Part shown: positions 1,331 to 24,432 of the stretch, piece by piece
Position numbering within the stretch: the first letter of the stretch is position 1
Layout of the letters: every line of letters starts with the position of its first letter
Assembly: GCF_009711975.1 (NCBI RefSeq)
Contig: NZ_VIKW01000009.1
Location: 62,001-126,000, forward strand
DNA from: Anabaena sp. UHCC 0204
Lineage (GTDB): Bacteria; Cyanobacteriota; Cyanobacteriia; Cyanobacteriales; Nostocaceae
Reading direction: 5' to 3'
Length of the DNA stretch: 64,000 bases
Made by a program: the position numbers and the translations under genes
The notes under the pieces: generated by a model
Database searches by the model: none
Told to the model about the DNA's origin: nothing
What the model saw: only the letters and a program-made list of their open reading frames with translations

Positions 1331-2524
1331 CTATAAGCCCCGAAAATCACGGAGTAAATAACCAAGCTGAGGCGATCGCCCCACAAAATCTCTAATTGCT
1401 GAACGCACGGGGCTGGGTAGGAGTTGAAAGCGACGAACTGGAGATTGATAATTAGTAGGTTGCTGACCTTCTTTGCTCCTGCTAATTGCTGGAAGTGAAT
1501 AAATGTCTTGTATGAGAGTCTCGTAGTGCTTCCACATCACGGTTGCATCAAAATTTGATCGTGCTTGCTCAATTACATTATTCGCAAAAGCCTCATACTC
1601 ATTACAGGCTAGAAGAACTTGGTTAGCCAGAATCTTGATGTCTCCTAATGGTGCAAAAAGTGCAGTCTTATTTGCTGAAACAATCTCCTTTGTGCCTGTT
1701 TCAATATCCCAAGCAACGGGAATACATCCCATACTCATTGCTTCAATTGTTGCCATACCAAATGGTTCGACACGACTGAGCATCAATAGAACTTTGGAGG
1801 ATGCAGCTAGACTAAAAATTACATCACGTTGAACGTGACCATAAATACAAATCTGTTCAAAATTAGGTAATTGCTTAATCTTAGTTTGAAAGCTAGGAGA
1901 TATATTTCCAAACCAATGTAGCTTTCCCATAAATCCATGATTGGAAAGCTCCTTCCATAGTTTCAATGTGTCAAATCCACCTTTTACGGGTTTATCACCT
2001 CCTAAAAAGATCATGTCATCTTTTCGGGATGTAGATTGTTGAAGCTGAGGAAATATACAACCGTTTAAAATAACAGAAAGTTTTTTAGAATTTTTTAGAT
2101 CATCTCTAAATTCACGAGCTACTGTTTCAGAAACAGCGACAATTGCATCTAAATTATTTTCTTCTTTAACTGATACTTGCCAGTAGCGGGAAGCAGTATC
2201 ATGAACAACATAGACACATTTGACTGTAGAAGGTAGATAAGGAATTACAGCATCTGTCTGTTCGCAACCATTCAAAAGTAATACATCTTGAGGGTGATCA
2301 GATAACCACTTTATTAATTCTACAGGGGTTTTTTCTGCTAAACCTTCTAGCCCCAAGGAAGCAACACGGAAAGGAAAATTATTGGTTGCAAGCCTTGATG
2401 TAGGTTTAAGTACAAGTAGTAATGTAGTTTCATAACCTGCTTTTGCAGCTTGCTCACAGCATGATATAGCTACTGAAGCTACTCCTCCACTACGATCATC
2501 AGGAATAAGCCAGCATATTTTCAT
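1331..2524 (-). CDS. Glycosyltransferase family 4
   Basis: This 397-residue GT-B enzyme begins MKICWLIPD with the glycine-rich GGVASVA loop near residue 13, typical of the GT4 N-terminal domain. The second domain shows FLGGDKPVKGG, then WFGN, and the donor-binding signature PFGMATIEAMSMGCIPVAW (residues about 253-271), with the two Glu/Asp positions of the E-x7-E region. It should transfer a sugar from a nucleotide donor during repeat-unit assembly at the inner membrane. It sits 43 bases downstream of the FkbM-type methyltransferase and 10 bases before the next glycosyltransferase, so it is probably co-transcribed with them. The C-terminal ~50 residues are basic and not recognised. Confidence 0.8.
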   Translation of the reverse strand: MKICWLIPDDRSGGVASVAISCCEQAAKAGYETTLLLVLKPTSRLATNNFPFRVASLGLEGLAEKTPVELIKWLSDHPQDVLLLNGCEQTDAVIPYLPSTVKCVYVVHDTASRYWQVSVKEENNLDAIVAVSETVAREFRDDLKNSKKLSVILNGCIFPQLQQSTSRKDDMIFLGGDKPVKGGFDTLKLWKELSNHGFMGKLHWFGNISPSFQTKIKQLPNFEQICIYGHVQRDVIFSLAASSKVLLMLSRVEPFGMATIEAMSMGCIPVAWDIETGTKEIVSANKTALFAPLGDIKILANQVLLACNEYEAFANNVIEQARSNFDATVMWKHYETLIQDIYSLPAISRSKEGQQPTNYQSPVRRFQLLPSPVRSAIRDFVGRSPQLGYLLRDFRGL

Positions 2525-2567
2525 AATTATTTATTTGTGTAAGAAATAATTGTTATTCAATCAGTGT

Positions 2568-3386
2568 TTATTGACACATTGCTAACCAATTGTCTAAAAT
2601 AACTGAATCTATCTGTGAGATATTACTTTCTACTAAAGAGCCATTTTCTATTAGTCTGTAAATAGAATAACCATGATCCAGTAAAATTTGAGTTGGTTTT
2701 TTCGGATCAAGTCCAGCTTTTTTAGCGTTGTTTGGACAAACTTCATAATAAATGAGGTTCACTCTTTTCTCTCGTAGTAGTTCTATTGCTCCTGAAAATA
2801 CTAGTTCTTCATAACCTTCTACATCAACTTTTAAAAAAGAAATATTTTCTATAGAATGTTTTTTAGCATAAGTATCAAGAGTTATACAGGGCAAATTAAT
2901 TATATGGTTTCCTTGCTCAGAAATGCTATTTGTACCTCGGTAAGTCGGATCTGCATTAAAAGCAATTTCACCATCATGATCTGCAACTACTATATTTTGG
3001 AGTAGGACATTATTACATTTATTCAATTCAGTATTTTTTTTCAAAGACGAAAATGTTGAGGGATTTGGCTCAAAGGAATGAACTTTTCTTGAGAGAAAGC
3101 GTTTAGCTAATATGAGCGATACAACTCCTAAATTTGCACCTACATCTATCAAGTCACCATTTGTTAGGCTATAGTGATTCAAAAAATCCCTCTCTGCATC
3201 ACTAACAAAATGTTTACAGGAATGAAATTCGCTAAAACCACTTAGTCCTGCAATACGAATATCATCGGGAAGTAACCTGATTGCTTCTCCTTTGTTTTGC
3301 CATTTACTTACTTGGTACTCATAGTAATCACTAAATAATTTAGGATTTTGGAGTAGGGTTAAACCATTTCTAATAAATTTCATCAT
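2568..3386 (-). CDS. FkbM family methyltransferase
   Basis: This 272-residue class I SAM-dependent methyltransferase belongs to the FkbM type. The SAM-binding motif I is GDLIDVGANLGVVSL (residues about 95-110). It is followed by the acidic SFEPNPSTFSSLKKN strand typical of FkbM (VxAFEPxP), and by FLKVDVEGYE (motif IV region), which is the FkbM hallmark. FkbM-like enzymes in polysaccharide clusters usually O-methylate sugars. The start is ATG 3386, but ATG 3383 is equally possible (MMKF). The neighbours on both sides are glycosyltransferases on the same strand, so methylation of the exported glycan is the best inference. Confidence 0.85.
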   Translation of the reverse strand: MMKFIRNGLTLLQNPKLFSDYYEYQVSKWQNKGEAIRLLPDDIRIAGLSGFSEFHSCKHFVSDAERDFLNHYSLTNGDLIDVGANLGVVSLILAKRFLSRKVHSFEPNPSTFSSLKKNTELNKCNNVLLQNIVVADHDGEIAFNADPTYRGTNSISEQGNHIINLPCITLDTYAKKHSIENISFLKVDVEGYEELVFSGAIELLREKRVNLIYYEVCPNNAKKAGLDPKKPTQILLDHGYSIYRLIENGSLVESNISQIDSVILDNWLAMCQ

Positions 3387-23126: not shown

Positions 23127-23453
23127 ATGACCACAGTTTACGAAACCATGTATATTCTCCGTCCTGATTTGGGAGATGAACAGGTAGAACAAGCGATCGC
23201 TAAATACGAAAACTTAATCCGCGAAAACGGTGCTGAGAATATTGAAATCCAAAATCGTGGCAAGCGTCGTCTAGCTTATGAAATTAAAAAGCATCGTGAT
23301 GGTATTTATGTTCAACTCAACTACACAGGACCAGGAACTGTAATTGCTATCATGGAACGTGCAATGCGACTAAGCGAAGAAGTTATTCGCTATATGACAA
23401 TCAAGCAAGAAATTCCTAAAGAAAAACCAGAAGAAGAAGCTGTAGCGGTTTAA
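23127..23453 (+). CDS. rpsF: 30S ribosomal protein S6
   Basis: This 108-residue small-subunit ribosomal protein begins [20 protein letters not shown] and contains [20 protein letters not shown], both diagnostic of bS6. The acidic C-terminal tail ([10 protein letters not shown]) is typical. It binds near the 16S rRNA platform together with S18, whose gene is not next to it here. A probable terminator follows at 23505-23533, so it seems to be transcribed alone. One HIP1 octamer lies inside the gene. Confidence 0.98.
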
Positions 23454-23504: not shown

Positions 23505-23533
23505 TCCCCATCTTCATCACAGTAAGGTGGGGA
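23505..23533 (+). terminator. Probable rpsF terminator hairpin
   Basis: A ten-pair stem (TCCCC-A-T-CTT with AAG-G-T-GGGGA, one T-G wobble) has a nine-base loop. It is followed by AAAATTTTAAT, a weak U-rich tract. Confidence 0.6.
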
Positions 23534-23559
23534 AAATTTTAATAAATTTGCTCAGTATG

Positions 23560-23838
23560 TGATATAATCGGCGCAAGTCAAAAATCAAGTATAACTAAAC
23601 AACGTAAAAACTTAATTTGATTGGTTAAGTACGTCGTCTCACCTAACGGTGTTGCAGTTTAATAAAGCTAGATTTCAATCGGACTTACTACTAAACAAAA
23701 ACTAATATGATACGGTAGGGCATACCGGAATTCACGCTTGGGGAGAAGATACCTCTACCTTGGTTGGAGCAATCCTGTCAAAGCAAGTAACCTTAATAAA
23801 CCAAGAATCTTAGGGTCCAAAAACTCTGAGAGTGTCAA
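23560..23838 (+). ncRNA. omegaRNA-like right end of a TnpB-type insertion sequence, without tnpB
   Basis: This gap between rpsF and the coiled-coil gene looks like the transcribed 3' end of cyanobacterial IS605/IS607-type elements as I remember them. In order there are GTCGTCTCACCTAACGG (23633), GTTGCAGTTT (23651), GATACGGTAGGGCATACC (23709), GATACCTCTACCTTGGTTGG (23749), GCAATCCTG, and the end ACCAAGAATC-hairpin-AGTGTCAA (23838). The terminal hairpin has eight pairs (23808-23815 with 23824-23831, two wobbles). A TATAAT box is at 23563. No transposase or tnpB frame is nearby, only rpsF upstream. In intact elements this RNA guides TnpB, and the guide would begin at 23839. The assignment rests on pattern memory, not a search. 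Confidence 0.5.
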
Positions 23839-23865
23839 TATCGCAGTTATATATAAGAGCTTTAA

Positions 23866-24432
23866 GTGACTGTGAGCCAATCTGATATACCAAACATCCA
23901 AGAACTGTCTACCGAAATATCTCAGTTGCAACAAGAGTTGCAATTGCGAGATCAATTAGTGCAGCAGTTATCACAAGAACTATTTCGGCTAGTCAAGGGT
24001 AATACTAACTTTACCCCGCCCAAATCTGAGCCAGAGATAGATTTGAGTCAATTGCAAGCTTTAAGAGATCAACTCCAAGCTGTTGAACAGCAGGTGACGT
24101 TCTACCAAGAGCAAATTACGAATCGTGATACTGAAATTTACCAACTACGACAGTCAGTACAGGAGCTAACTGATCGGAGTAGAATGTTAGAACAAGTAGT
24201 ACAGGAATTACCCCAAATTTACCGTCGTAAGTTTGAGGAACGCATGACACCAGTGCGAGATAAGGTAGCAATGTTACAGCGAGAAAATCGCCAATTGCAA
24301 GCCGAGTTGCAAAGCGTGAGTTATCGTCTAGCACTCAAAAACCGCTACACCAATCATGGTGGTATTGATTTACCTACTTTTCCTCGTTCAGAAGTTACAC
24401 CAAATAATCTGTCTACTCCACAAAATGCCTAA
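23866..24432 (+). CDS. Coiled-coil protein of unknown function
   Basis: This 188-residue protein starts at GTG 23866 (a second GTG at 23872 is possible). Almost the whole chain is predicted coiled coil rich in Gln, Glu and Leu. There are heptad stretches at residues ~10-45 (IQELSTEISQLQQELQLRDQ), ~60-120 and ~130-160, broken by a Pro-containing KGNTNFTPPKSEPE linker. The C-terminal 25 residues are polar and probably disordered. I see no membrane segment or catalytic motif. It begins only 27 bases after the putative insertion-sequence right end at 23838. A second such element follows 88 bases after its stop. The function is unknown; a structural or scaffold role is a guess. Confidence 0.6.
   Translation: MTVSQSDIPNIQELSTEISQLQQELQLRDQLVQQLSQELFRLVKGNTNFTPPKSEPEIDLSQLQALRDQLQAVEQQVTFYQEQITNRDTEIYQLRQSVQELTDRSRMLEQVVQELPQIYRRKFEERMTPVRDKVAMLQRENRQLQAELQSVSYRLALKNRYTNHGGIDLPTFPRSEVTPNNLSTPQNA

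Follow-up and report, generated by a model that had tools for sequence, protein, structure and literature searches.

A putative tnpB-less IS200/IS605-type element behind rpsF in Anabaena and a predicted RNA junction shared with tnpB genes

Why would the right end of a TnpB-type mobile element stand by itself behind rpsF, with no nuclease or transposase gene at its side? The 280-base gap that follows rpsF in the stretch of Anabaena sp. UHCC 0204 DNA analyzed here (64,000 nucleotides [nt]; the window) contains TATAAT at 23563-23568, GTCGTCTCACC, GATACGGTAGGGCATACC, GATACCTCTACC, GCAATCCTG, a hairpin at 23808-23831, and AGTGTCAA ending at 23838. An earlier note had taken the gap, from 23560 to 23838, for the solo right end of an IS605 or IS607 element, either acting in trans as a guide RNA or decaying; the motifs that it named are all present, at or next to where it had put them. 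The end does stand alone, because the 64-kb window holds no match to TnpB domains or to the Y1 transposase, and the profile matches in this genome all lie elsewhere. The features of the locus are as follows.

23127-23453, + strand: rpsF, the upstream neighbor (open reading frame)
23558-23568, + strand: extended -10 box TGTGATATAAT, candidate promoter of the element (consensus match)
23588-23669, + strand: predicted 5' RNA domain (three-way junction), damaged in the window copy (consensus fold, pair counts, model R1, leave-one-out deviations)
23711-23838, + strand: putative omegaRNA and right end, homologous to the 3' end of tnpB (tnpB match on contig C55 of the same genome; copies in relatives)
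23808-23831, + strand: subterminal hairpin of the right end (sequence; five conserved pairs across 33 aligned copies)
23835-23838, + strand: TCAA, right cleavage site and element boundary (alignment of 36 copies)
23839-23854, + strand: predicted guide, the first 16 nt of the flank (similar native sequence in other genera)
23866-24432, + strand: downstream gene, starting 27 nt past the element (open reading frame)

The right end and its tnpB counterpart

A search of the region against the 83 contigs of its own genome returned five matches: the window itself, one on C1, two on C10, and one on C55. On C55, the match falls at the 3' end of a tnpB gene (positions 2061-3281 of locus L049), where 20 identical bases, followed by 70% identity over 106 positions, are shared with window positions 23711-23839. 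Because this gene ends in homologous sequence, the window motifs do belong to a TnpB right end, and 23711-23838 is, judging from this homology, the right end (putative omegaRNA) of an IS200/IS605-type TnpB element. Looking in this genome for tnpB copies with the same right end, as the earlier note proposed, leads to the homologous one on C55, and similarity to cyanobacterial tnpB right ends, the absence of which the note would have taken as refutation, was found. The product of the C55 gene has both TnpB Pfam domains; inspected by eye, it retains the aspartate, glutamate, and aspartate of the RuvC site, and the gene is preceded by the same kind of left end as the intact tnpB-less copies described below. 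The genome contains 10 TnpB-domain matches in all (9 over the cutoff) and four matches to the Y1 transposase, which are partial or low scoring (40.9 bits for the best, in a 60-amino-acid [aa] frame; 24.7 bits for one in a 214-aa frame and 22.8 bits for one in a 186-aa frame). Across 60 genomes, this one included, 59 have a TnpB match, indicating that a partner of some kind is nearly always present.

At the site of the window copy, other genera have similar native DNA (TATCGCAGTTATAC...) in which the element is absent. This native flank and the sharp right boundary support a guide starting at 23839, as had been proposed; a 20-nt pattern from that position matches its own genome only at itself when up to 3 mismatches are allowed. 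The gene that follows, at 23866-24432, has matches in 53 of 60 genomes (its own included), and a Pfam search of its product returned nothing over the cutoff.

The view of the entire gap as a right end does not hold, since its left half, 23588-23700, is not right-end sequence, and the extent assigned to it also changes: the promoter box from 23558 and the RNA domain from 23588 belong to the element. The Rfam check that the earlier note recommended yielded no matching family, either for the window at the gathering score or for 23540-23880 at E values of up to 10; in four loci of the family (L049, L053, L138, and L002; E up to 1), it returned only a tRNA and a sub-threshold CRISPR repeat, both outside the elements. 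The fold of the 251-nt window RNA is no more stable than those of its shuffled versions (z = -0.18).

Two further observations concern right ends. The omegaRNA motif (columns at about 143 to 157 of alignment A1) has two forms, TACGGTAGGGCATACCGG and TACGGTAGGGATACGGTC, that are interspersed among close copies, a pattern resembling gene conversion with tnpB ends. Separately, a terminator-like hairpin at 23506-23532, after rpsF (CCCCATCTT...AAGGTGGGG), resembles by eye that at the right end of L008, another tnpB element of this genome, and may be a second decayed right end.

A family of small elements without tnpB

The left half is tied to the right end by its recurrence: window segment 23558-23700 occurs jointly with the right end in near full-length copies of relatives, at 72 to 77% identity. 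Intact copies in congeners are about 380 bp long and contain neither a tnpA nor a tnpB gene. Their layout consists of the flanking TTAC, a left hairpin, a TGTGATANNAT promoter-like box, an 85-nt RNA domain, the omegaRNA, and TCAA as the right border. The left end with its hairpin reads CTCAGTCACTTTAGTGCTGAG in many of the intact copies, the TGTGATANNAT-like box lies about 104 bases in, and AGTATAACT lies about 137 bases in, followed by the omegaRNA motif, the right hairpin, and GTGTCAA. The box keeps a nearly constant offset in most related elements, which favors the earlier suggestion that the TATAAT sequence is a candidate promoter.

TTAC is present at the left border of 26 of 36 copies; in the other 10, the left end has been rearranged or otherwise changed, cut, or lost. 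Thirty of the 36 align through to the right end, 29 of them ending in TCAA and one (L020) in CCAA. Subterminal hairpins occur at both ends in intact relatives, and only the right one is recognizable in the window copy. An empty site is available for a copy in congener G011 (L098): G008 has the interrupted sequence in continuous form, and TTAC stands at the junction. Insertion is after TTAC and without target duplication, the left border of the window copy itself not being recognizable. From these ends, the element type is that of an apparent IS200/IS605 element lacking tnpA and tnpB; TTAC and TCAA are also the left and right ends of IS608. The IS605 half of the earlier assignment thus stands, and an origin from IS607 was rejected, as it is contradicted by the TTAC/TCAA ends of the related copies and their IS200/IS605-type hairpins. 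A second, more complete tnpB-less element, with both ends present, occurs elsewhere in the same genome (L002; C1, 15202-15445); its left target is ATAC in place of TTAC.

Matches to the region were found in 33 of the 60 genomes searched (its own included), which, like the five within this genome, is more than a chance resemblance would give, and the family extends to Dolichospermum, Nodularia, Cylindrospermum, Microcoleus, Tychonema, and Lyngbya. Across 84,980 genomes, 36 loci match a 26-base pattern taken from the 5' domain; all are cyanobacterial by title, and Phormidium-like strains are among them. At 30 of these loci, a right end follows 240 to 263 nt after AGTATAACT (up to three substitutions); among the other six, one has a decayed right end (L122), three are cut by the end of the stretch (L128, L150, and L153), and two (L136 and L146) are interrupted like L178, in which the element resumes downstream. 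In Microcoleus, Tychonema, Lyngbya, and relatives, eight loci (L120, L131, L133, L138, L143, L144, L149, and L152) have an orthologous tnpB-less element before the same conserved small gene (MAKRRNLKKEKAQRN...). Conservation among the eight is 0.86 to 0.98 over the first 150 nt of the RNA and 0.73 to 0.84 in the right part, and that of the upstream flank is 0.54 to 0.82. At these eight loci, the element is followed by a second IS605-like hairpin (GAATCCCC...GGGGA.TGTCAA).

A predicted three-way junction inside and outside tnpB

Over the first 85 columns, 28 diverse copies fold into a three-way junction composed of P1 (CUAAAC/GUUUAG), beside a UAA/GAN-like internal loop, then P2, and P3 (ACACC/GGUGU or AUACC/GGUAU). 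Among the 26 distinct sequences, 96.4% of 702 cells pair, as opposed to 26 to 40% when the partner is slid, and the covariation score exceeds those of all 500 shuffles. Only 2 of 27 pairs are changed on both sides in the tnpB-less copies, a number reached by 422 of the 500 shuffles. G-T cells outnumber A-C cells both in these copies (99 versus 10) and in tnpB (107 versus 37), an excess that fits an RNA of the sense strand. A pairing predicted from 33 close copies between the 5' end and the distant omegaRNA loop was dropped because the more diverse copies favor the three-way junction. As modeled, the left half is a separate structured RNA that is also found inside tnpB.

The occurrence in tnpB emerged from a covariance model, R1, that was built only from copies without tnpB and that matches 31 of 386 cyanobacterial genomes at E values of up to 0.001. 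Of 30 R1 loci, 22 were looked at; L169 and L190, displaced by contig ends, were not interpreted. Of the 22 matches, 10 fall within tnpB genes (one a broken gene), and 9 of these 10 are followed by a right end at 472 to 538 nt; another nine belong to tnpB-less elements, the divergent L191 and L179 among them, no right end accompanies the match at L176, and two are unreadable. The divergent element at L191 (genome G234, 1501-1731) also lacks tnpB and has a P2 of unrelated sequence, a fold of the same kind, and a right end 221 nt on. In the C55 gene, the match to a model of the tnpB form (R2, described below) covers nt 730 to 822, at RuvC-II, and the junction starts about 500 nt from the right end. 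The corresponding stretch of tnpB encodes KISRQRKDHAVKLARCV..SND...YEDL, up to and including the GAA codon of the RuvC-II glutamate (recognized by motif).

Since this stretch also encodes protein, pairing was compared with that in sequences whose synonymous codons had been redrawn. The protein motif of this clade fits 28 of 73 distinct tnpB frames, 27 of them nonredundant. These 27 show 85.2% pairing of the structure, compared to 61.7% (standard deviation, 1.5) after redrawing, a value reached in 0 of 500 redraws. The 42 nonredundant tnpB genes of other clades show 34.7% pairing versus 35.8% in the control, with outer P1 also above the null there (0.762 versus 0.681; 5/500). Three of the 27 (L204, L206, and L237) form only one of the six inner P1 pairs. 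A stricter control, in which synonymous codons were permuted within columns for the 20 sequences not found by R1, gave 82.1% versus 75.8% (0/1,000), and under it the outer P1 helix has no support. Both sides are changed in 11 of 26 pairs in tnpB (14 of 500 shuffles reach that number), and double-sided cells amount to 71 versus 25.6 in shuffles (0/500). Part of P2 was fitted by eye on the tnpB sequences, and all of the controls described here ignore relatedness. In 23 of the 27 genes, the aspartate codon (GAT or GAC) has a third base that forms a Watson-Crick pair with that of its partner codon. Applied to the 27 tnpB sequences alone, RNAalifold predicts only P3.

A model of the tnpB form, R2, has matches by score in 88 of the 386 genomes and 49 of 142 genera (E up to 1e-4). 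Run against 13 sources, it matches four (L049, L258, L007, and L204), three of them from its training set; it matches none of the tnpB loci from five plasmids of other phyla (L253 to L257) and none of four tnpB genes from other cyanobacterial clades (L193, L197, L215, and L234). Literature searches in an open-access collection (titles and starts of abstracts, with most subscription papers outside it) turned up nothing on such tnpB-less omegaRNA elements, and no paper there combines tnpB, three-way junction, RNA, and IS605. We regard the tnpB-less family and the RNA within tnpB as new, a novelty that rests on Rfam and on this literature.

Age of the window copy, competing explanations, and known systems

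The congener G013 has a right end at the same junction and before the same gene as the window copy. In nine others (G002, G004, G005, G007, G008, G009, G011, G012, and G014), the core is absent and the promoter segment is kept; among these nine and the window, mean gapless pairwise identity is 0.88 for the 38 nt starting at the box, 0.73 for the preceding 30 nt, and 0.28 to 0.41 between -110 and -30. Because G013 shares the junction, the nine keep the promoter segment, and other genera have native sequence, we take the insertion to predate the divergence of these species; retention of its promoter may have served the gene at 23866. Seven rpsF sites considered as true empty sites were rejected and are read as core-deleted copies, since the loci of other genera lack the promoter segment and have a similar native flank. 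In five congeners (G001, G003, G006, G010, and G015), a right-end remnant, hinted at by the alignment with G013, does not score above shuffles when the right ends of the window and L053 serve as references (that of G013 itself was not used). The gap between rpsF and the downstream gene measures 188, 591, and 628 nt in L067, L071, and L075, and its variability among congeners suggests repeated insertion and loss. At another locus in G013 (L061, 2441-2566), the element is reduced to the promoter-like box and a portion of the RNA domain, directly before an open reading frame with a lipoprotein-like start.

Where at least 95% of the other 27 sequences agree, the window copy deviates at 7 of 114 columns, including 5 of 61 in the 5' domain. 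Twenty-two of the other 27 have fewer deviations than the window, L134 and L024 have as many, and L127 and L133 (8 each) and the decayed L055 (26) have more. Two of the changes affect P1, in one of its pairs, and the internal loop, on its GAN side. The copy is old and probably decaying: with no recognizable left end and a damaged junction, it is probably immobile and losing function. Both alternatives in the earlier note thus find a place, in that the window copy looks decaying in its left end and RNA domain and the intact relatives look like a trans-acting design.

Our preferred reading, which we consider likely, is that the window copy is an old, immobile, tnpB-less IS200/IS605-type element, which amounts to a mobile guide-RNA gene. 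The tnpB-less elements would have arisen from a tnpB element that lost internal sequence and kept both RNA parts, and a Y1 transposase would mobilize them. A resident TnpB, such as that of C55, would use the element RNA with the flank as guide and would cut the empty allele, so that the element is kept. The three-way junction would tune TnpB or RNA maturation, perhaps like the inhibitory mRNA segment of AmaTnpB. The window copy would probably move no longer and be losing its function, and its promoter may serve the downstream gene. A junction and an omegaRNA behind one promoter-like box are what we would expect of a mobile guide-RNA gene that uses TnpB in trans.

The junction is a candidate structural basis for control of TnpB by its own mRNA or, alternatively, for a 5' domain of a long omegaRNA. 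It is a candidate for such control because the match in the C55 gene sits at RuvC-II, and nt 825 to 875 of the AmaTnpB mRNA, which adjoin the RuvC-II site, are reported to reduce DNA cleavage in vitro (Nety et al. 2023, PMC10278001); the same report gives processed omegaRNAs of 79 to 466 nt. The 5' half of the ISDra2 omegaRNA is described as dispensable for cleavage (PMC10097598), and the junction therefore need not be part of the guide. A broader proposal, which we advance as speculation and rate as rather unlikely, is that cyanobacteria harbor RNA-only mobile elements with a single bipartite RNA, consisting of a TnpB-controlling junction (normally located in tnpB, in the RuvC-II codons) and a guide RNA. 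On this view, TnpB would be regulated by a dual-coding RNA, the junction, and would be exploited in trans by elements that parasitize and possibly restrain it.

Several other explanations bear on the same observations. A plain decaying miniature element (MITE), i.e., an internal-deletion remnant with functionless RNA parts, would account for the missing left end of the window copy, its seven deviations, and the nine congeners without a core, but we find it doubtful in view of a layout and a conserved RNA domain that Nostocales share with Microcoleus and relatives, the higher conservation of the RNA domain than of the upstream flank at one orthologous locus in eight Microcoleus-group sequences (0.86 to 0.98 versus 0.54 to 0.82), and the compensatory changes in tnpB. 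That old copies persist as a co-opted promoter and leader driving the downstream gene has a real, though less than even, chance of being correct: nine congeners keep this segment and not the core, the element ends 27 nt before a start codon, a copy precedes the conserved small gene in Microcoleus and relatives, and a left half lies right before an open reading frame in G013. Co-option leaves unexplained, however, the right end, the fixed layout, and the presence of the same domain inside tnpB.

The junction might instead act as single-stranded DNA, given that IS200/IS605 elements transpose as single strands, but in the C55 tnpB element it begins about 500 nt from the right end, and the wobble pairs favor a sense-strand RNA; this seems very improbable. 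We also judge it improbable that the tnpB-less RNA is a decoy whose inhibitory mRNA domain restrains TnpB rather than guiding it. The junction does extend to the RuvC-II glutamate codon, and AmaTnpB mRNA is reported to inhibit cleavage in vitro through a segment adjoining this site (PMC10278001), but the sharp right end and the guide position, needless for a brake, are kept as well.

If they are mobile guide-RNA genes, the tnpB-less elements are candidates for guides that spread without a nuclease. They amount to a natural deletion experiment across many genomes, which points to the omegaRNA end and the junction as the parts of the tnpB transcript that matter. The junction offers a concrete structure with which to test the inhibition that an mRNA is reported to exert on the TnpB it encodes. 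In tool building, recoding the tnpB of this clade would destroy the predicted junction RNA.

The elements resemble IS200/IS605 elements of the IS608 kind (with TnpA Y1 and TnpB) in their TTAC left and TCAA right ends, subterminal hairpins, and a right end doubling as omegaRNA, and differ in having no internal tnpA or tnpB, an additional RNA domain, and their own promoter-like box. With palindrome-associated elements (PATEs), reportedly treated along with TnpB by Meers et al. in 2023, and with IS605-type MITEs, they share small size, hairpin ends, and presumed mobilization in trans, whereas their interior is conserved and structured across families. The MITEs described in Anabaena sp. 90 (147 copies, complete or partial, with lengths of 77 to 541 bp) likewise reside in bloom-forming Nostocales; compared by description only, they are called type II and without similarity to insertion sequence ends in the available text (PMC3542288). 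The inhibitory region of the AmaTnpB mRNA also adjoins the RuvC-II site, a likeness of position alone to a region in another organism, for which the portions of the report at hand describe no conserved structure (PMC10278001). As in the omegaRNA or reRNA of ISDra2 and AmaTnpB (PMC10097598, PMC10278001), the putative guide RNA here corresponds to the 3' end of tnpB, with a right-end hairpin and the flank as guide; unlike those omegaRNAs as described there, it lies behind a separate promoter-like box, without tnpB, and is joined to a three-way junction.
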